Source of the DNA: Leptolyngbya sp. NIES-3755
GTDB taxonomy: Bacteria; Cyanobacteriota; Cyanobacteriia; Leptolyngbyales; Leptolyngbyaceae
NCBI GenBank assembly: GCA_001548435.1
Contig: AP017309.1
Coordinates: 186,001 to 250,000, forward strand
Direction: 5' to 3'
Length of the DNA: 64,000 nucleotides
The position numbers and the translations under genes are program-made. Under the pieces are notes generated by a model. It searched no databases. It had not been told where the DNA came from and was given only the letters and a program-made list of their open reading frames with translations. Of this stretch, positions 1 through 15,259 are shown in pieces; within the stretch, counting starts at the first letter, position 1, and each line of letters begins with the position of its first letter.

Positions 1-787
1 AAGCAACCTCCAGAGATAACAAACGATCGACAATCCGCTGATACGGCTCAATTAGTTTTTCGGTTAAATCATCACGCTCTTTGGTGCTGTGATTTTCTTG
101 AATGTATCGATCAATAGGAATTCCTGCGAGTTGCGATTCCGTAAATTTAATTGAGCGAGGAACCGAATGAAAAAGATCGACACCCTCCACCTTTGACAAT
201 GAAACTAATGCTCCTTTGCTGATGTTAGTGTTGTCAGACATTGTAGGTAACACCCCCAGAATTTCCAATTCAGGGTTGGAGCGCGTTTGTACAGCTTGAA
301 TTGTGCTAAGAAGCTGCTTGTAACCTTTCGCCGAAAAATACTGACATTGAACAGGAATTAAGACGAGATCAGCAGCAGTGAGAGCAGAGTACGTCAAGCG
401 ACCCAACGAAGGCGGACAATCGATAAAAATGTAGTCGTATTGATTCAGCTTGCTGAGTTGCTCTTTGAGCATGAAATGCGAGTCAGGTGTAGCAATTAAC
501 TCTACTTCTTTCTGCGCCAACCCGATGTCAGCAGGAATGAGATCAATTCCCCATTGGGTTGAGAGAATAATGGCATTGGGATTTTGGCGCGTATCCAGGA
601 GATTGTAAGCAGTCAGTTGATCATCTAAAATCTCTCGAACACCGAGTCCATCAGTGCAATTTCCTTGAGGATCTAAGTCGATCGTTAGGCAAGCTTTTTC
701 TTGGCTAATCAACGAGGCAATCGCGAGTGTCGATGAAGTTTTCGCGACTCCTCCCTTCTGATTTGCGATCGCAACAATTTTGGTCAT
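1..787 (-). CDS. parA: ParA-family partition ATPase, C-terminus cut by window edge
   Basis: Reading from ATG at 787 on the minus strand the frame is open to base 1, giving about 262 residues without a stop. The N-terminus reads MTKIVAIANQKGGVAKTSS, a deviant Walker A of ParA/MinD/Soj ATPases with signature lysine K11 and K16-T17. A Walker A' region (TIDLDPQGNCTDGLG) and a Walker B (YDYIFIDCPPSLG) follow at the expected spacing. ParA proteins polymerise or form gradients on nucleoid DNA and move ParB-bound plasmid centromeres. Usual length is 250-300 residues, so only the tail is missing. No parB lies upstream in the window; it would be expected beyond the left edge. Two palindromic sites lie 144-229 bp upstream of the start and may be operators or parS-like sites. 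Confidence 0.93.
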   Translation of the reverse strand, partial: MTKIVAIANQKGGVAKTSSTLAIASLISQEKACLTIDLDPQGNCTDGLGVREILDDQLTAYNLLDTRQNPNAIILSTQWGIDLIPADIGLAQKEVELIATPDSHFMLKEQLSKLNQYDYIFIDCPPSLGRLTYSALTAADLVLIPVQCQYFSAKGYKQLLSTIQAVQTRSNPELEILGVLPTMSDNTNISKGALVSLSKVEGVDLFHSVPRSIKFTESQLAGIPIDRYIQENHSTKERDDLTEKLIEPYQRIVDRLLSLEVA

Positions 788-2094: not shown

Positions 2095-3085
2095 CTAAGT
2101 TCGCCAACGACTCAAATCACCGGATTGTACTTTCAAGGCTTGAACACAGGTACGAATCAGCAGTTGATCCATGTCTTTAAAGGTGGCAGTCTTATACAAG
2201 GCATCCGGCGTTAAATGGTTGATGACATTTGCAATATTAAGTTCTTCAGACACGGATTGGCTCAATTCTTGCCAGCCTTTAGAATCTTGCTGATCACGCA
2301 TCCATTGTTCGATAAAAGCATAGGCGTGTTGTCCGGGCGTAATGAATGACTTGCCGTTCAAGTTGAGCGGGGAGCGCACCGTGAAGAGACCTTTCAAAAT
2401 GAGTAATTAGTAGGCGGATGAAGAACTTGAGCAGGCTGGGATTCGGATCGTGAAAATCAGTGTAGGTTTGAACCGTCTGCCAGAATGATTGGGCGGACAG
2501 AAATCGAGTCAAGTCTGCCCATAAAGGATTATCTGACTCTAGTAAGCCTGCTTGTAAGACTCGGCGCAGTAAGCTCGGCGCGTCGGGCATCTTTAGGTTG
2601 ACTAACACCGATTGCATCGCGAGGAGTAAATCTCGATCGCTAGTATCGGAAGGCAGTTTCATTGCCAAGAGTGCGTCAAGGTGTTTGCGGCTGTCGAAGA
2701 ATTTGAGGTGGTCTCGAATCGTGGTTTCTAGACTGCGCTGGCGAAAACCGAGTTCGGTGAAGATCAGAGCGGCGCGATCGGCAGAAAAAGACAGGGCGCT
2801 TTTTTGCAAATCCAGTAACTAATTTTCGTGGGGCAGAGGTTCTGGAAACGGGGCATATAAGAGAAAGTTTTGAGTGGGTTCTTGTATCAGCAGACGATAT
2901 TTCGTCATGAATGGGGTGCCTGCGAGTTAAAGTTTTTCGACGTTGGGTAGGGTGAGTTCGTCAAAGGTGTCTTGAAACTGCGCTTCGGGATCGTACCAAA
3001 ATACCACTCGTCGCCCGGAGTGCGCCCAACGGGTTTCATCCTGAAAAAGAGTTTGGAGGCTGGTTTGAATCCTTGCAGTGTTCAT
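2095..3085 (-). pseudogene. pglZ: pglZ (BREX type 1) remnant: two stop codons, one frameshift, truncated
   Basis: Three minus-strand pieces join into the start of a BREX-1 PglZ (alkaline-phosphatase-superfamily component of the phage-resistance complex). ATG at 3085 begins MNTARIQTSLQTLF, followed by RRVVFWYDPEAQF and ELTLPNVEKL, the usual PglZ N-terminus. An in-frame TAA follows EKL. The frame resumes with AGTPFMTKYRLLIQEP and NFLLYAPFPEPLPHEN, then a TAG where PglZ has tryptophan (HEN-W-LLDL), then FSADRAALIFTELGFRQRSL. Near 2400 the frame shifts to KGLFTVRSPLNLNGKSF and ends at 2095. Only about 330 of roughly 850 residues remain and the phosphatase domain is absent. It cannot make a working PglZ. 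The identification is by recognised sequence pattern and by gene order. Confidence 0.8.
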
Positions 3086-3093
3086 CGTTTGGG

Positions 3094-3546
3094 TTATGAC
3101 GCAATGGGCTGAGTGACGGCTGATAGAAACTCGATCAGTTGTTGGATCAGGGGGTGGCGTTGAAGGGCTTGGATCTGGTCGGGGGTGAGACGATCGAGCA
3201 TTTTTATCAGTTCAGTATTATCGACGTGCGATGAGGATAAGATCGACGCGATCGAGGGGGCTGCTAGAAAGACTTTGAACGGAACTTCTGGCGAACTTGC
3301 TGGATAAAGCATTGTATTGGTTAGCTCGATCTTTTCTTGAATCTCAGATCGGTTTTCAGTGTCTGCATCCAACACAATCGCGATCGGGCGATGACGATCG
3401 ATTAGTAGGGTGGCAGCGGCTGAGATGGCGGAGGCATTGCCATCTGCGGCATAAAAGCGAATGTTTTGGGTCAGCGCTGATGGCAGCAGATGTTCTAGGA
3501 TTGCGACATCTGTTGGGCGATCGGTGATTAAAAATGCAGCGGTCAT
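3094..3546 (-). CDS. TOPRIM-like acidic protein paired with the nuclease gene
   Basis: 150 residues, open and intact. The N-terminus (MTAAFLITDRPTDVAIL) and the strand-plus-acidic segment PIAIVLDADTENRSEI (about residues 54-69) resemble TOPRIM or DUF3226-type domains, in which a D-x-D binds metal; here the motif is LDADTE. The first TOPRIM glutamate is not obvious, so the assignment is tentative. The ATG overlaps the last four bases of the upstream nuclease gene, implying translational coupling, and the pglZ remnant begins 9 bp after its stop. The pair therefore looks like an insertion in a BREX operon between pglX and pglZ. Confidence 0.5.
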   Translation of the reverse strand: MTAAFLITDRPTDVAILEHLLPSALTQNIRFYAADGNASAISAAATLLIDRHRPIAIVLDADTENRSEIQEKIELTNTMLYPASSPEVPFKVFLAAPSIASILSSSHVDNTELIKMLDRLTPDQIQALQRHPLIQQLIEFLSAVTQPIAS

Positions 3547-4115
3547 ACGACTTCCTCCAGATCGATGCGATAAAAGGGAATGACTTGTTCAAGACAGATG
3601 CGGTACTTTCGGAGTAAGCTTCGCCGCATCGATTGCTGTCTCAGTGCGTAGTCGATCTCGCTCCCTTGCCAAAGTAAGATGGCTTGATTTGCATTGTACT
3701 GTGCCAGGATTAGGGCTGCTTCGGTGAATCTGGCGGTGCTAAACACAATTCCGATCGCGCCTGCGGGTCTGCGTAAGAGTTGGCTGCGAAGTTTTGCGAC
3801 AGGTTCGATGGCGACGTTGCTGGTTTGGTCTTTGCATTCGACGAGGCAAGAAAGCCCATCGCTGTAAACGGCTCCATCGATTTGCTCAAGGACGGTTCCG
3901 GCGATCGCGGTGGAATAGGGATATGTTACATCGGCTCCTTCGAGTTGAAAGGCGCGGATGATTAGGTATTCGAGGGCTTTGCCGGGTTCCCAATTAGGGA
4001 TGTCGCAGGCTTGGATTTGAGTCCAGAGATCCAGGAGTTGAGCGCGACCCTTGCGGTATCTGCGAAGCAGCGCGTAGGTTTCGATACGGCGTTGATATTC
4101 GGCGGCGGTGGTCAT
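3543..4115 (-). CDS. Mrr-like PD-(D/E)XK restriction endonuclease family protein
   Basis: 190 residues, intact. Residues about 45-100 show the restriction-endonuclease-like core: GKALEYLIIRAFQLEGADV (helix with conserved E), then EQIDGAVYSDGLSCLVECKDQ, where D (of QIDG), E and K (of VECK) form the D...ExK metal-binding triad. A later strand, GAIGIVFSTARFTEAAL, is typical of Mrr/REase proteins acting on DNA. It overlaps the next gene by 4 bp and lies in the BREX relic. Of the relic genes only this pair remains open. It could act as a stand-alone nuclease module or be a passenger; DNA cleavage is expected from the family, not shown. Confidence 0.72.
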   Translation of the reverse strand: MTTAAEYQRRIETYALLRRYRKGRAQLLDLWTQIQACDIPNWEPGKALEYLIIRAFQLEGADVTYPYSTAIAGTVLEQIDGAVYSDGLSCLVECKDQTSNVAIEPVAKLRSQLLRRPAGAIGIVFSTARFTEAALILAQYNANQAILLWQGSEIDYALRQQSMRRSLLRKYRICLEQVIPFYRIDLEEVV

Positions 4116-4142: not shown

Positions 4143-4515
<373 letters not shown>

Positions 4516-4519
<4 letters not shown>

Positions 4520-4900
4520 AGAACGATTCCGTCTTGGCGAATATTTCGCAGCAAGGGTGAGTTTTCGGTTTCAAAGCGCGGTGGCTTCGCCTAGCCGCAG
4601 GCAACGCGGAATGAAGAGTCGAGAAATGAGAAGATTGTGTTCTAGACACAGTTGGGCGATAAATTGGCTGGTGCGATTTAATTCTTCGCTGGCATTAACT
4701 GGATCTTCTAGAACGATGAGGATGTCGATGTCGGAGGCTGCTGTGGCTTCACCTCTTGCCTGGGAGCCGAATAGGACGATTCGATCGAGGCGGTCTTGAT
4801 ATTCGCGCTGAAGATAGTCTCGTAGGGGGGTGAGAATGGTCGTGATTTCGGGGTGAGTTGGGAGCGTAGGACGCTTTGAGTTTGAGGGTTTTGTTTCTAT
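4516..4900 (-). pseudogene. MNT-type nucleotidyltransferase, disrupted by a short repeat insertion
   Basis: The minus-strand frame from about 4900 reads DRLDRIVLFGSQARGEATAA then SDIDILIVLEDPVNASEEL. This is the nucleotidyltransferase signature (GSxARG...SDxD) of small MNT antitoxins that AMPylate HEPN toxins. At about 4576-4610 a GC-rich palindrome-like sequence interrupts the frame; beyond it the protein resumes in another frame as RFETENSPLLRNIRQDGIVL. No ATG is found at the expected start; ATA at 4900 may be a lost ATG. The neighbouring HEPN gene is also broken, so the pair is dead. Confidence 0.75.
4576..4610. repeat. Short GC-rich interspersed element inside the nucleotidyltransferase gene
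   Basis: GCGGTGGCTTCGCC followed by TAGCCGCAGGCAACGC interrupts an otherwise good protein reading frame and shifts it. Such small palindromic GC-rich sequences are common as interspersed repeats in filamentous cyanobacteria. No second copy was found by eye in this window; a similar but unrelated loop-like sequence lies near 5500. Confidence 0.5.
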
Positions 4901-5230
4901 TGTGATTGTCCTGCTTTTTTAACGAGATCGAGTTTCCATTGGGGTTTCTTTTCCAGGTCTGCCATTTTTAGGTCTGCGCCTTCATAGATAATGCCTTTGA
5001 AGCGGGTGTAGTTGTAGGCGACTCCATCGTCGAGATCGAGTTCGATGCGGGCATCGGCAAGGGTTTGGAGTTTGGCTTGGTAGTCGCGGAGTTCGAGTTG
5101 TTGGTCTTGGAAGTCGCGGAGGCAGCGGTTGAGGGATTTTTTGGTGGTGGCGTTGGCGTTGGTGAGTTGGGACTGGAGGCGATCGAGGAATGTCCTTCTC
5201 AAATAACTCAGAAATGTTGATCATGCTCAC
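4897..5230 (-). pseudogene. pglX: C-terminal remnant of BREX adenine methyltransferase PglX
   Basis: ATG at 5230 starts MSMINISELFEKDI. The frame then shifts near 5190-5200 into RTFLDRLQSQLTNANATTKK, KLQTLADARIELDLDDGV and YNYTRFKGIIYEGADL, ending at 4897. The IELDLDDGV...NY..F ending matches the tail of BREX-1 PglX proteins. The whole methyltransferase domain (usually over 1000 residues upstream) is missing. Directly downstream on the same strand come MNT/HEPN, nuclease/TOPRIM and pglZ, matching pglX-pglZ order in type 1 BREX. Identification is moderate because the tail is short. Confidence 0.6.
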
Positions 5231-5771: not shown

Positions 5772-6935
5772 ATGGGCAGGCTTATCACAGTCAGCATCTT
5801 CACAACACTGCTGTTGAATATGACTGAAACTCCTGGAAATGATTCATCGAATTTAGCAACCGACCGATACGAAGCAGTTTTGGCAGAAGTCAGCGCAATG
5901 CTTGAAGCGGCTCGCCACGAGGCAGCGAGAACGATTAATACCCTGATGACTGCAACCTATTGGGAACTTGGGCGGCGAATTGTTGAGCTAGAACAACAAG
6001 GAGCAGAGCGGGCGGAATACGGCAAGCGGATTGTTGAACGCCTCGCCAAAGATTTGTCCCCAAAGTTCGGACGAGGCTTTAAGAAAAGTAATTTGTTCCA
6101 GATGCGATCGTTTTACCTCGCCTACCCAGATGCGGCTCAATCCCTAGCTGGAGAAGCCACCAACATTTTCCAAACAGTGTCTGGAAAATTCCCGCTGCCC
6201 TGGTCGCATTACGTCAAACTGCTTTCAGTCAAAGACCCACAAGCGAGAGCATTCTATGAGGCAGAAGCGCTTAGGGGCGGCTGGTCGATCCGCCAATTGG
6301 GTCGCCAAATTTCGACGCAATTTTATGAACGAGCGCTCTTGTCACGTAATAAGGCAGCCATGCTAGAAAAATCGACACAACGCGATGCCAGAGACGCGAT
6401 CGCGCCAGAGGATGAACTGAAAGATCCGTTTGTCTTGGAGTTTCTGTCGCTCAAGGACGAATATTCAGAAAATGATTTAGAAGAAGCACTCATTCAACAC
6501 ATTGAGAGCTTTCTACTGGAACTGGGAAATGATTTCGCTTTTTTAGGACGGCAAAAACGGTTACGCATCGGGGATCAGTGGTTCAGAGTAGACTTACTCT
6601 TTTTCCATCGACGGTTACGCTGCCTTGTCATCGTCGAACTGAAATTAGGCGAGTTTTCCTATGCAGACGCTGGACAAATGCACCTGTATCTCAATTATGC
6701 GCGTGAGAATTGGATGTACGCTGACGAAAATCCGCCAGTCGGTTTGATTTTGTGTAATCGAAAAGATGAAGCGATCGCACATTATGCCCTCGAAGGTCTT
6801 CCCAATAAAGTAATGGCAGCCGAATACCAAATGGTGCTTCCCGATGAGAAGCTATTAGCAGCCGAATTAGAGCGCACGCGCAAAGCGTTAGAACAGCGAA
6901 AGCTGACAGAAAATGACCCAAACCAAAATGAGTAG
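5772..6935 (+). CDS. YhcG/DUF1016-type PD-(D/E)XK nuclease family protein
   Basis: 387 residues from 5772; ATG at 5820 (MTETPGNDSS) is an equally likely start because the first 16 residues are hydrophobic and unlike the family. The N-terminal DUF1016 part contains TYWELGRRIVELEQ, AEYGKRIVERLAKDLSPKFG and FKKSNLFQMRSFYLAYP. The C-terminal half holds a nuclease-like core: QKRLRIGDQWFRVDLLFFHR and LVIVELKLGEFSYADAGQM, with D and ExK of the PD-(D/E)XK fold. DUF1016 proteins are often linked to restriction-modification and defence loci. The perfect TTTCTTATGTACA dyad ends 28 bp before the first start, so the gene is probably controlled through it. Confidence 0.85.
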   Translation: MGRLITVSIFTTLLLNMTETPGNDSSNLATDRYEAVLAEVSAMLEAARHEAARTINTLMTATYWELGRRIVELEQQGAERAEYGKRIVERLAKDLSPKFGRGFKKSNLFQMRSFYLAYPDAAQSLAGEATNIFQTVSGKFPLPWSHYVKLLSVKDPQARAFYEAEALRGGWSIRQLGRQISTQFYERALLSRNKAAMLEKSTQRDARDAIAPEDELKDPFVLEFLSLKDEYSENDLEEALIQHIESFLLELGNDFAFLGRQKRLRIGDQWFRVDLLFFHRRLRCLVIVELKLGEFSYADAGQMHLYLNYARENWMYADENPPVGLILCNRKDEAIAHYALEGLPNKVMAAEYQMVLPDEKLLAAELERTRKALEQRKLTENDPNQNE

Positions 6936-6985
6936 TATGATGACTAGAAACTTATCTGTCATCTGGGATCTCTGGCTGTTGACGA

Positions 6986-9073
6986 ATGGCAAAATCATCT
7001 GGTTCAGGTACTTCTAGCGTTTACGATTTTGACCCTGGACATTTGCAGTACCAGGGTGAGCGATACATCACGCTAGAAGCCAATGATGTAGGAGAGGTAG
7101 TTATTCTCTCAGCACAGAAGGGCGAACCTGCTGCTTCTCAAATTCTCAAGCAGGCAAGTCAAGGTTATGACTGGGGCACACTCGTCAGCGAGATTCTGAC
7201 AGCAGATTATTTGTCTAAACTAATCGCCACACTCCGCGACAATTCTGATCTTCCAGAGTTAGTAACAAATCTACTTTTTCAACATTTGGTTAAGGTTTAT
7301 CAATACAAAGTTGAAACGACGTTGCAAAGTGAAGGGATTGATGCGATCGATACGAGTCTGCCTCATTTCAAATTGAATCGAAATCGCAAGCAGCACACCC
7401 AAAAGCTGGAACTTGCTTTTGATGATGAGCGGATCAAGGCGTACTTAAAAAATTCGTTGTCTGAATTCTTTAACCATGTCGGCTTCTGGGAAGAGTTCGC
7501 TAAAGCGATCGGGGCTAACTTGGTCGCGTGGGCAGTCGAACACTTAGAAGAGAAGCTGAGTTCAAGAGCGCTAAAGGCATTATCTCAAGATGAACTGATC
7601 GAGAGAATTAGTCAATTATTGACTGCGCTCAACTCCAAGGTATTACAAGAGAAGATTAGCTTCTTTGGGCAAGTTTACTCGCAGGACATTACTAAGAAGA
7701 TTATTCAAGGATTCAACCTTCCAGACTGTTCGTTACAAGAGATGGATAAGTTGCTGGGAATTAGGCAGCGTCCCTCTTTTAGCAGTAACCGCTCCTTGGA
7801 ATTTGATCCGATCGCAGTGATTCCGACCTCGATTCCGATCGCCAGCAGCATTCGCGCCCAGCTTCGTCCAGATTTGTGGCAGCAAAACTCTGATGATTTA
7901 GCGGTGTTCCAATATCGCAGCCGCTCTAATCCTAACAACTACATCGAACACTTCATTACAAATCCTGGTGATATTGAGATGATGCCGTGGGAAGCAGCAG
8001 AGCAAATCATCAACAAATTCGGATTTGACACGGTTAAATTACAACTTATCTTCGCGGCTCGAACCATGCAAGAAGACGAACCGTGGAACAGCACATTCAC
8101 ATTGAAAGCAACAGACATTGTTCAGCTTTTAGGTTGGGATCGAAATCACAATACAACATTAGCTGAAAAACGTAGCGCAGTTGCTAGTACAGCCTATGCC
8201 TTATCTTGTATGCTCGTAAAATCCGTTTGGGTTGAAGGCAGGGGAAAGAAGAAAGTTGATGCAAGTACACCGATCGGCAGAATGTGGGATGTGCTGATCG
8301 ACATTCATGGGCAGATGGATTGGTTGAGTAGCAAAATCGAAAAGCCGGAGGAAGTTTACATTACCGTTAGCCCTGGCTTATGGACAAAGCACTTTCTCAA
8401 CCGTGCTGGAAGCCGTGCTAAAGAGGCATTGCATCAATTTGGATACCTCGCACAAGACATCCTTAGAATCGACCCATATCACAACGAAATGGCGCTTCGG
8501 TTAGCGATTCAACTGACGCTCGATTCTCGCATTCGAGTCAGAAATCAAAATCCTTACGATTACCAGGTTGTTAGCTTACTGGAAGAAGTATTGCCCAAAC
8601 TTGAAATCGAGAAGGCACTACAAGACAAACACAAAGCGCGTGATCTGAAGAATCGCTGGAACAAGGCTCTAGAACTATTATTGAGTTTGGGATGGCAGAT
8701 TGAGTTTGATCCCAAAACTTATCCTGACTGGCTCCAACCTAGTAGCATTGCACCGAAACCGGACGATTGGCGAAAGATTCGGGTGATCGATCGCTTACTG
8801 CAAGCCAAGTTAACGATCAAACCCCCTCACCCGATTCCGAGTCTTCTTGCAGGAATCAAGGACCCGAAGAAGCCAAAAGCGATCGCTCCAACTCCGGCGC
8901 AAGAGTTGACAGGAGAAGAAATTCGCAAAGCCCGCGAGGAGCAGGGATGGAGCCGTAAAGAGTTGGGCGGATTTATGGATCTCAGTGCAGACTACATCGG
9001 GAAATTAGAACGGGGCGATCGCGTCGTTACACCAGAACTTGAAGCAAGAATCCGCAAACTGTTACGCCTCTGA
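6986..9073 (+). CDS. Large HTH protein beside iterons; candidate replication initiator
   Basis: 695 residues. The C-terminus (about 640-693) is an Xre/Cro-type HTH: EEIRKAREEQGWSRKELGGF then LSADYIGKLERGDRVVTPEL. The middle (about 360-560), with TFTLKATDIVQLLGWD, AEKRSAVASTAYALSCMLVK and IGRMWDVLIDIHGQ, has the helical style of winged-helix plasmid initiators, but I cannot name the family. It lies directly upstream of an iteron array (9168-9930) and a primase-like gene, so initiation or copy control is the best guess. The start is chosen at the first ATG after the YhcG stop (about 50 bp). It could equally be a regulator. Confidence 0.55.
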   Translation: MAKSSGSGTSSVYDFDPGHLQYQGERYITLEANDVGEVVILSAQKGEPAASQILKQASQGYDWGTLVSEILTADYLSKLIATLRDNSDLPELVTNLLFQHLVKVYQYKVETTLQSEGIDAIDTSLPHFKLNRNRKQHTQKLELAFDDERIKAYLKNSLSEFFNHVGFWEEFAKAIGANLVAWAVEHLEEKLSSRALKALSQDELIERISQLLTALNSKVLQEKISFFGQVYSQDITKKIIQGFNLPDCSLQEMDKLLGIRQRPSFSSNRSLEFDPIAVIPTSIPIASSIRAQLRPDLWQQNSDDLAVFQYRSRSNPNNYIEHFITNPGDIEMMPWEAAEQIINKFGFDTVKLQLIFAARTMQEDEPWNSTFTLKATDIVQLLGWDRNHNTTLAEKRSAVASTAYALSCMLVKSVWVEGRGKKKVDASTPIGRMWDVLIDIHGQMDWLSSKIEKPEEVYITVSPGLWTKHFLNRAGSRAKEALHQFGYLAQDILRIDPYHNEMALRLAIQLTLDSRIRVRNQNPYDYQVVSLLEEVLPKLEIEKALQDKHKARDLKNRWNKALELLLSLGWQIEFDPKTYPDWLQPSSIAPKPDDWRKIRVIDRLLQAKLTIKPPHPIPSLLAGIKDPKKPKAIAPTPAQELTGEEIRKAREEQGWSRKELGGFMDLSADYIGKLERGDRVVTPELEARIRKLLRL

Positions 9074-12872: not shown

Positions 12873-15259
12873 ATGCTGAACGAGGCGGACACTTGCCGAA
12901 AGTACGTTCTTCCCAAACTCAAAGCCTGGGAAGAATGCCCTGACCATCCTCACCTATTTACGGAGCAGTACCCAATCGATGCGGGTCGAATTCTGACGAA
13001 TGGAGGACGGACACGACGGAGACGCAAAAAGTTCGCGGATTATTTGCTTTGCTACACTCGTGATTTTCCGTTGGCAGTGGTTGAAGCGAAACGCAAACAT
13101 AAATCGCCCCAGGATGGCTTGGAGCAAGCCAAGAATTATGCAGAACTGTTAGGTCTGAAATTTGCTTATTCGACCAATGGAGCGGGGATCGTTAGTTTGA
13201 CTACACGACGGGATTGATCACGCGGATGGATTCGTTCCCCAGTCCGCAAGAACTTTGGGCGCGATGGAGAAAGTCTGAGGGGTTGAGCGATGAGATTGCT
13301 GACAACTTACTTACGCCTTTTGATTTAACAGGTGGTAAGATTCCTCGCTATTATCAGCGCATTGCGATTAATCGAACCGTCCAAGCCATTCTTCAGGGAC
13401 AAACTCGATCACTGTTGACGATGGCAACCGGAACTGGGAAAACGACCGTCGCCTTCCAGATTTGTCAGAAGCTCTGGACGATGGGCTGGAATACGGCTGG
13501 AGAACACCGCAAACCTAAAGTCCTGTTTTTGGCAGACCGTAATATTTTGGTTGATGATCCAATGCTGAAGGATTTTTCAACCTTTGATGAGGACGTTCTA
13601 CATAAGATTCAGGGCGAAGTAGTCAAGAGCCGCGAAATTTACTTTGCGATTTACCAAGCGATCGCAAAAGATAAAAATCGCCCCGGATTGTATCGCCAAT
13701 ACAGCCCTGGCTTTTTTGACCTAATCGTCGTGGATGAATGCCACCGAGGAAGCGCACGAGATGAAAGCAACTGGCGTGAGATTCTAGAGTATTTCCAGCC
13801 AGCCTATCAACTTGGACTGACTGCCACTCCGTTAAGGGACGACAACGTTAATACTTATCGGTATTTCAAACAACCGCTCTACACTTACTCGCTCAAGGAT
13901 GGCATTAATGATGGTTTTCTAGCGCCGTATAAAGTGCATCGCGTGACGACCACTTATGACGCATTGGGATGGCGACCTAGCCCGGATGATCTCGATCGCT
14001 ACGGTCGCACAATTCCTGATGAGGAGTACCAGACCGGAGATTTTGATCGAGCGGTGGCACTCAAAGCCAGAACAACAGCGATCGCACGTCACATTACCAA
14101 TTTTCTGAAGAAGAGCGATCGCTTTGCCAAAACGATCGTGTTCTGTGTGGATGAAGAACACGTTTTAGAAATGGTAGAAGCGCTGAATAACCTCAACAGC
14201 GATTTGGTACAGCAGTATCCGGACTATGTTTGCCGAGTGACATCGGCGGCTGGAGATGTAGGGAAAGAGCAGCTTTATAAGTTCAAGGACGTTTTGACGC
14301 GATCGCCCGTGATTGCGGTGACTTCTAAGCTGTTAAGTACCGGGGTTGACATTCCCACCTGCAAGAATGTGATTTTGGTGCGGGTTGTGAAATCGATGAC
14401 GGATTTTAAACAGATTATCGGGCGTGGGACGCGCGTTTATGAGGACGATGGAAAGCTTTCGTTCACAATTTTGGATTACACGACGAGTACGCGATTGTTC
14501 GCCGATCCAGCGTTTGATGATGACCCGACTCGAATCGAGATTGAAGCGATCGATGATGAAGGCGAAACGGTTGACGGAAGTGAGGAAGTCATTGAGCCGG
14601 AGCAACCGGAGATCGAAGAGAGGGATTTTGAGGACGATGCCCCCACTGGTTTTACAGGCATTCCAGAAGATGATGACCTGCTGCCCCGCAAATATTACTT
14701 TGATGGGGGACAGTGTGAAGTGATCGGGGAGATTGTTTATGAGCTTGATCCAAATGGCAATCAACTGCGGACATTCAAGCTGATCGATTACACCGGGGAG
14801 CAGGTTCGGACGCTTTATCGATCGACATTGGAGATCCAGCAGCGTTGGGCGAATTCTGAGCAGCGATCGGAGATTGTGCAGCAGCTTGGCGATCGTGGCA
14901 TTGATTTTGAGGATCTCAAAGCGGTGACAAATCAGCCGGACGCAGACCCGTTTGATTTGCTGTGTCATATTGCGTTTGATGCGCCCATTATGACTTACAA
15001 GCAACGGGCGGAACGATTACGCCGTCAGCGGAAAGACTTTTTTGAGCAGTATGGCAACGATGCGCGAGAAATCCTGGAAATTCTGGTAGAGAGTTATGCT
15101 CAGGGCGGAATCGAGCAGCTTGCGCTTCCGGCTGCCCTTAAGGTAAAAGCAGTAGAGGAGAAATATGGTAACGTTCGTGAGGTTGCCGAATGCTTTGGCG
15201 GAATTGATCAACTCAAGCAGGCGGTAGACCAGTTACAAATTCTCTTGTACACCGCATAG
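12873..15259 (+). pseudogene. hsdR: hsdR, type I restriction subunit, split by one frameshift
   Basis: The first 107 or so codons (12873 to about 13190) give the N-terminal nuclease part: DYLLCYTRDFPLAVVEAKRK with catalytic D and E-x-K, then QAKNYAELLGLKFAYSTNGA. At about 13193 one base appears lost: adding it restores GIVEFDYTTGLITRMDSFPS in one frame through to 15259. The rest is the helicase motor (TMATGTGKTTVAFQIC Walker A, VVDECHRG motif II, TKLLSTGVDIPTCKN, QIIGRGTRVYED) and a C-terminal HsdM-contact region. As read, the nuclease and motor are separate ORFs overlapping by 4 bp (13214-13217), so ATP-dependent DNA cleavage is probably lost unless recoding occurs. A sequencing error is possible. 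Confidence 0.85.

Follow-up and report, generated by a model that had tools for sequence, protein, structure and literature searches.

By sequence comparison, the two overlapping genes described here are a widespread two-gene module rather than a part of the BREX locus whose remains surround them. They lie in a 64,000-nucleotide stretch of the Leptolyngbya sp. NIES-3755 genome (contig AP017309.1, positions 186,001 to 250,000), which is called the window below. With moderate confidence, we interpret the pair as a horizontally moving module in which an active, potentially self-harming Mrr-type nuclease would be restrained, largely by non-catalytic means, by a protein with a TOPRIM fold. The interpretation draws on the distribution of the two genes, on the direction in which pairs decay and on the conservation of the two active sites.

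The gene pair and its surroundings

A preliminary description of this DNA had recognized an open reading frame for an Mrr-like nuclease and, overlapping it, an open TOPRIM-like frame. Both were recovered in our reading of the ORFs of the window: they have 190 and 150 codons, respectively, are located on the minus strand and share the four nucleotides ATGA (Table 1). With such an overlap, translational coupling of the two genes is likely. The Mrr protein matches the Pfam family Mrr_cat (PF04471) with an E-value of 7.1e-9 and a score of 36.2 bits, which is above the cut-off of 21, and it has the catalytic residues E49, D80, E93 and K95. Its predicted structure, calculated from a three-row alignment, had a mean pLDDT of 42.9 and this model was left unused.

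Table 1. Features of the window around the gene pair (positions counted from the first nucleotide of the window)
Feature	Position	Strand	Basis or remark
ParA ORF, open	2-787		runs off the window
DUF6788 ORF, open	1200-1544
pglZ wreck, three open pieces within the first ~325 of 855 model positions	2095..3085 (pieces 2927-3085, 2294-2809, 2095-2397)	-	PADLOC PDLC02564; downstream of the pair
Gene 2, TOPRIM-fold protein of OLD/GajA kind, 150 aa, short form	3094..3546	-	predicted fold
ATGA overlap, gene 1 stop and gene 2 start	3543..3546	-	same overlap in relatives
Gene 1, Mrr-type PD-(D/E)XK nuclease, 190 aa	3543..4115	-	Pfam Mrr_cat and catalytic residues
24-nt (8-codon) in-frame insertion of a short dispersed repeat, gene 1	4043..4070	-	N-terminal to the catalytic core
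HEPN remnant, frame-broken	4321..4494	-	Pfam HEPN E 9.8e-8 on a 58-aa open piece
Nucleotidyltransferase remnant (MNT of MNT/HEPN pair)	4574..4918	-	Pfam NTP_transf_2 E 7.4e-12
pglX C-terminal remnant, last ~70 residues	4897..5202	-	PADLOC PglX E 4.4e-14, model positions 1101-1168 of 1174; upstream of the pair
YhcG-type nuclease ORF, open	5772-6935		PADLOC PDC-S02
695-aa ORF, open	6986-9073		C-terminal HTH

Every neighbor of the pair had been thought to be broken. This is correct for the flanking pglZ, pglX and MNT/HEPN genes, and the window pglZ contains four stops when it is read in the frame of its intact relative. The ParA, DUF6788, YhcG-type and 695-aa ORFs, however, are all open. The latter two follow one another beside the BREX wreck (5772-9073).

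The pair itself had been termed intact, which is true of its frames but not of everything within them: gene 1 carries the in-frame repeat listed in Table 1, and the TOPRIM-like protein has Asp9 and Ala100 at two of its acidic positions. In the alignment, the repeat appears as eight residues near the N-terminus of the window Mrr that are absent from its relatives. The 22-base core of the insertion is found at five places in the genome, including the window's own, with at most two mismatches, and the reversed control gave 0. The BREX locus that encloses the module in the window is dead, and the module, too, may be failing.

Other copies of the Mrr gene show small rearrangements as well. Two Mrr copies of this same genome contain short repeat-like insertions, the one in the window being in frame and that of L013 (about 13540-13557) frame-breaking. 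At L103 (9471-9833), an in-frame deletion has removed the catalytic E-x-K strand of Mrr, and the TOPRIM partner is open.

Fold of the gene 2 product

In sequence searches, the gene 2 product of the window gave nothing above a cut-off, with a weak DUF3226 match in Pfam (E 0.056). Among 29 family members examined at E-values up to 0.1, DUF3226 was matched by 11, OLD-like_TOPRIM by seven and Toprim_3 by three. None of the 10 proteins submitted to an NCBIfam scan reached a cut-off, and neither window protein matched a PADLOC model at E-values up to 1. Family members gave weak PADLOC matches, with best E-values of 2.5e-7 for HEC-01B, 0.0026 for AbiLii and 0.00031 for MAD4.

Because this sequence evidence for a TOPRIM domain was weak, we took the route of structure prediction. 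The ColabFold model of gene 2, calculated from five sequences, had a mean pLDDT of 85.4. Its top Foldseek match was the OLD nuclease of Thermus scotoductus (Ts OLD) with an E-value of 6.6e-4. Comparison of the model with Ts OLD (6p74) in VIA-align resulted in a Z-score of 12.4 and an rmsd of 2.9 for 133 aligned residues, followed by Bp/Xcc OLD with Z-scores of 11.3-11.9 and GajA (8j4t) with 10.1, whereas the rows for other folds started at 9.1, below the OLD and GajA rows. The prediction for gene 2 is hence a TOPRIM fold like that of the OLD and GajA proteins. The TOPRIM-like identity assigned earlier is only a weak hint if the sequence of the window protein is considered alone, and it is upheld by the family members and by the confident predicted fold, which matches OLD nucleases.

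The closeness of the fold to the OLD and GajA nucleases, together with the weak PADLOC matches to HEC-01B, AbiLii and MAD4, speaks for a rival explanation, in which the Mrr and TOPRIM proteins form one effector complex of a defense unit, both of them cut nucleic acid, like GajA or AriB, and gene 2 is the main effector. We return to it with the active sites below.

Occurrence and genomic neighborhoods

The TOPRIM profile matched in 37 of the 388 genomes of the class and the Mrr profile in 39 of the 388, a few of the latter matches being distant, longer proteins. In the family of genome G195, the corresponding numbers were 56 and 49 of 217 genomes (in many genomes of these searches, scoring was limited to the best 8-15 candidates). 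Among 52 rows with a TOPRIM match, of which L028 and L063 are one locus, an Mrr ORF match was located directly upstream in 42, and in 36 of these 42 the two ORFs overlapped by four nucleotides. Among the 52 loci in this comparison, a third gene cluster was shared by 12 at most.

A plasmid of Rhizobium beringeri also carries the pair (L137). Its Mrr is 41.8% identical, and its TOPRIM partner, which was detected only beside this Mrr, matches profile positions 2-100 only. Plasmid records searched with Mrr yielded one match, and when one TOPRIM member was used as the query there was none. The preliminary description had suggested that the two genes form a self-sufficient module and had proposed to look for it elsewhere, both in and out of BREX loci. 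The recurrence of the pair in many cyanobacteria and on the Rhizobium plasmid, mostly with the 4-nt overlap and with no constant third gene, agrees with this suggestion, and the pair is not peculiar to the window.

A phage-borne origin was considered and rejected, as none of 50,697 phage records was matched with Mrr as the query, and a search of viral contigs with the Mrr alignment brought up no relative that could be confirmed.

The genome of the window, which consists of four contigs with the window on the 326-kb one, has four copies of the pair. Copy C1 is beside TnsB/TniB/TniQ-type and PbeC/DndD-like genes, copy C2 is near a pAgo gene and a SIR2 gene, and copy C4 adjoins an ORF of 748 aa as well as one that falls into a cluster with the YhcG-type ORF of the window. 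Each of the three copies outside the window combines a broken Mrr frame with an open TOPRIM frame.

Defense-type genes are neighbors of the pair at some loci, namely BREX, pAgo with SIR2, PbeC/DndD with Tn7-like genes, a type I methylase and AriAB. When 20 chosen neighbors were compared with PADLOC, six had convincing defense matches (PglZ, type I REase, type I MTase, AriAB, pAgo and PbeC), two matched other models (GlgB-like and HEAT-repeat) and 12 had no match at an E-value of 1e-5; some of the 20 had been picked on suspicion of a defense role, and hence these counts are not a measure of enrichment.

The surroundings of three loci deserve a separate mention. At L083 (8499-10913), an Mrr remnant and a complete TOPRIM ORF are immediately preceded by a fused AriAB (PARIS) gene. 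At L013 (9350-12312), which is on the contig of the window, genes for a Class II-type pAgo and a SIR2-domain protein adjoin each other near another copy of the pair. At L014 (10848-19064), a copy of the pair stands alongside TnsB-, TniB- and TniQ-type genes, which have a helicase and a PbeC/DndD-like gene as neighbors, and this copy is possibly Tn7-like cargo.

Relationship to BREX

The position of the pair in the window, between remnants of pglX and pglZ, had led to the proposal that it rides in BREX loci between these two genes. In LEGE 13415 (G003), the closest relative of the window's genome, the pair adjoins a complete pglZ of 848 aa. Restriction endonucleases and TOPRIM/OLD nucleases are among the auxiliary effectors of BREX loci, the TOPRIM proteins being tied to OLD-ABC ATPases (PMC12839542). 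These observations would fit a pair that serves as a backup effector of the BREX locus. Its distribution argues against such a role, which we regard as highly improbable. The PglZ model PDLC02564, the one PglZ model searched genome-wide, matched in five of the 37 pair-bearing genomes, and it adjoins the pair in only two of the 37, the genome of the window and LEGE 13415. In the remaining three, the pglZ gene is about 100 kb away from the pair or on another contig. A BREX partnership as a rule, and with it the general form of the earlier proposal, is not supported by these counts from one PglZ model. In the window, the pair was formerly within a BREX operon, and BREX is one of its many homes.

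One-sided gene loss

Both proteins were searched for in the same 388 and 217 genomes, and 99 loci were classed by profile coverage in one frame with the help of one automatic rule. Mrr and TOPRIM were both complete in 53 of the 99. In another 34, the TOPRIM ORF was complete and Mrr was incomplete or absent. Seven of the 34 were dropped: L063, which is the same locus as L028; L065, L069 and L102, which are at contig ends; and the doubtful L095, L179 and L199, where Mrr is open from profile position 18-36 onward and is perhaps functional. This left 27 loci. A complete Mrr with an incomplete TOPRIM was found once, in L085, which runs off its contig; apart from this contig end, the 99 classified loci contain 0 cases of a complete Mrr with a broken or missing TOPRIM. 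Neither a complete TOPRIM nor a complete Mrr was present in the other 11 (L032, L033, L072, L073, L074, L190, L208, L209, L211, L212 and L213). The Rhizobium pair L137, the Mrr pieces near contig ends in L135 and L162, and the fragments G548:C265 and G549:C1124 were left out of the tally.

On a quick TOPRIM tree, the status of Mrr changes at least 22 times by parsimony, and the number is the same with 28 or 27 lost loci (L199 was still counted as lost, giving 28, in the first tree count, in the dN/dS comparison and in the residue survey). Parsimony is blind to the difference between gain and loss, and we read these changes as losses because many of the loci retain Mrr remnants. If each gene had equal odds of being lost, the probability that none of 22 losses hits gene 2 would be 2 to the minus 22, which is a rough estimate as some branches of the tree are weak.

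This one-sided pattern favors an addiction unit over plain defense. The one-sided loss could also be explained by a separate useful role of gene 2. If the TOPRIM protein had an independent function and Mrr were dispensable cargo, with no antidote relation between the two, one would understand why TOPRIM persists at 27 loci that have no complete Mrr, with a dN/dS of about 0.27 among these orphans. Dispensable cargo, however, should also occur on its own, yet all 53 complete Mrr genes are accompanied by gene 2, the 54th being the contig end. We consider this explanation quite unlikely.

Active site conservation

The Mrr residues E49, D80, E93 and K95 are invariant in all 53 complete members of the family. 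The corresponding analysis of gene 2 used acidic positions 9, 13, 60, 62 and 100, which align with E377, D381, D431, D433 and E480 of Ts OLD by motif and spacing rather than by residue-level superposition. The five Ts OLD residues are at metal-ligand positions (PMC7049728). Among the 53 TOPRIM partners of a complete Mrr, 33 keep all five acidic positions and 20 have at least one of them missing. At least one of Glu9, Asp60 and Asp62 is absent from 17 of the 53; in two of these 17 (L064 and L030), the substitution is a mild Asp62 to Glu, and Ala100 is present in addition. The window protein has Asp9 and Ala100 where Glu is usual and keeps D13, D60 and D62. In the aligned sequences, the cutting residues of Mrr are always kept in whole pairs, whereas those of the TOPRIM site are not.

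These numbers bear on the explanation in which both proteins cut. As 33 of the 53 partners keep five acids, catalysis by gene 2 may be relevant in most lineages, and this count is in line with a nuclease role of the TOPRIM protein. On the other hand, at least one acid is dispensed with by 20 partners of a complete Mrr. Furthermore, were gene 2 the dangerous effector, one would expect many losses of gene 2 and few of gene 1, and the opposite is seen (27 losses of gene 1 versus 0 of gene 2). A defense unit of two nucleases is, in our opinion, unlikely. The asymmetry of gene loss and the asymmetry of the active sites agree with each other, and for this reason we assign the probably dangerous part to Mrr and the putative protective part to gene 2.

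Selection and the state of the window copy

When the window pair is compared with LEGE 13415, the 150 codons of TOPRIM give a dN/dS of 0.11 and the 136 codons of Mrr one of 0.03. Values near 1, which had been named earlier as an indication of drift, were therefore not found, but the wrecked pglZ is equally low at 0.087, so that the low values are no sign of present selection. In the window, dN/dS cannot separate constraint from drift because the breakage is too recent. The dS values for the same two loci (L063 is that of LEGE 13415) are 0.10 for Mrr, 0.39 for TOPRIM and 0.48 for pglZ. The jump inside the pair may be due to local recombination or gene conversion.

Across the family, the median TOPRIM dN/dS is 0.273 for orphan-orphan comparisons (27 pairs), 0.236 for intact-intact comparisons (190 pairs) and 0.255 for mixed comparisons (146 pairs), where the pairs are not independent of each other and the orphan value spans a long shared history in which many of the Mrr losses are perhaps recent.

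It is conceivable that the window pair is drifting and that its open frames are just a matter of time, a situation that is compatible with our main explanation. The repeat in Mrr and Ala100 in the TOPRIM protein point in this direction, as do the three other copies in the genome with an already broken Mrr and the dN/dS of the wrecked pglZ, which is as low as that of the pair. Nevertheless, both frames are open while the flanking genes carry stops, and the Asp9/Ala100 combination predates the decay of this locus because it is common to the window, LEGE 13415 and L012. On balance, we find drift of the window copy doubtful.

Comparison with known systems

Gene 1 is similar to the type IV restriction nucleases of the Mrr family (PF04471) in its catalytic domain and PD-(D/E)XK residues. 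It differs from them in that the protein is short (about 180 aa) and has a TOPRIM-fold partner at 53 of 53 complete copies. Gene 2 is similar to the OLD nucleases and to GajA of the Gabija system in its fold and, for most members, in its acidic residues. In contrast to these proteins, its 150 aa are filled by the TOPRIM fold with no ATPase domain, its partner is an Mrr nuclease and no helicase is involved, and with Asp9 and Ala100 the window protein does not have the catalytic Glu set of OLD-type TOPRIM domains.

The pair also resembles AriB of PARIS and HEC-01B, AbiLii and MAD4, whose small TOPRIM proteins belong to operons of two or a few genes. In phage-defense systems such as PARIS and Gabija, the TOPRIM protein is considered to be a nuclease effector. 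The partner of AriB, however, is an OLD-ABC ATPase, whereas here the partner is an Mrr nuclease and, judging by the pattern of gene loss, the TOPRIM protein looks protective.

In toxin-antitoxin and restriction-modification pairs, it is the nuclease that disappears and the protector that is retained. The pair described here resembles these systems in that its two genes are small, mobile and tightly linked and one of them is lost alone (27 versus 0), but its presumed protector has a TOPRIM fold instead of a known antitoxin fold or a methylase, and its toxicity is putative.

AriB pairs with its ATPase and both are needed (PMC12839542, PMC9122126), and in PARIS, the closest tested two-gene TOPRIM system, deletion of either gene is non-toxic and abolishes defense (PMC9122126), a behavior that speaks against restraint of Mrr by gene 2. 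We found no description of a stand-alone Mrr and TOPRIM gene pair in the accessible portions of the open-licence literature (PMC12839542, PMC10853773, PMC7159879, PMC7049728, PMC3710099, PMC8649781, PMC10568477, PMC2701414, PMC9122126, PMC5512222). Two other combinations are different from this pair: one N-terminal domain is joined either to TOPRIM or, in other proteins, to an Mrr-like domain (PMC3710099), and an Mrr_cat effector is fused to a STAND NTPase (PMC9122126). E. coli YbjD is reported not to need its Toprim domain for its anti-phage effect (PMC13261556), and by analogy YbjD would be a partial precedent for a non-catalytic TOPRIM. We infer that the pair is a nuclease and guardian module with an unusual guardian, the nuclease-guardian principle being a known one.

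Proposed mechanism and its implications

In our explanation of a restrained Mrr nuclease, gene 1 would encode the active and probably dangerous part of the module, a DNA nuclease of the Mrr-type PD-(D/E)XK class. The gene 2 product, translated from the overlapping start codon, would restrain Mrr, probably through binding. The TOPRIM fold would then serve mainly as a scaffold, and its metal site would be dispensable in many copies. Mrr would be freed only upon a trigger, which could be foreign DNA or the loss of gene 2 or of the operon, and the outcome would be either defense against a phage or plasmid, or addiction. What we observed are the linkage of the two genes, their wide spread, the predicted fold and the one-sidedness of both gene loss and active-site conservation. 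The harm done by unrestrained Mrr, the binding of the two proteins to each other and the outcome in defense or addiction are parts of this mechanism that we infer from the comparisons described above.

We further propose, as a tentative idea, that the module represents a new class of nuclease immunity, in which a TOPRIM fold, known from phage defense as a nuclease domain, has become the antidote of an Mrr-type nuclease and retains its role in binding, whereas its active site can decay freely. A TOPRIM-fold protein that acts as the protective partner of another nuclease would broaden the roles of this fold, and the pair is a simple one to test. In addition, finding out which gene of a pair dies first would offer a way to assign roles ahead of experiment. 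If the idea is true, the orphan TOPRIM genes would be anti-addiction or cross-immunity genes directed against incoming or sister Mrr copies. Such a role would be suggested by the genome of the window, which has four copies of the pair, of which one has a complete Mrr.
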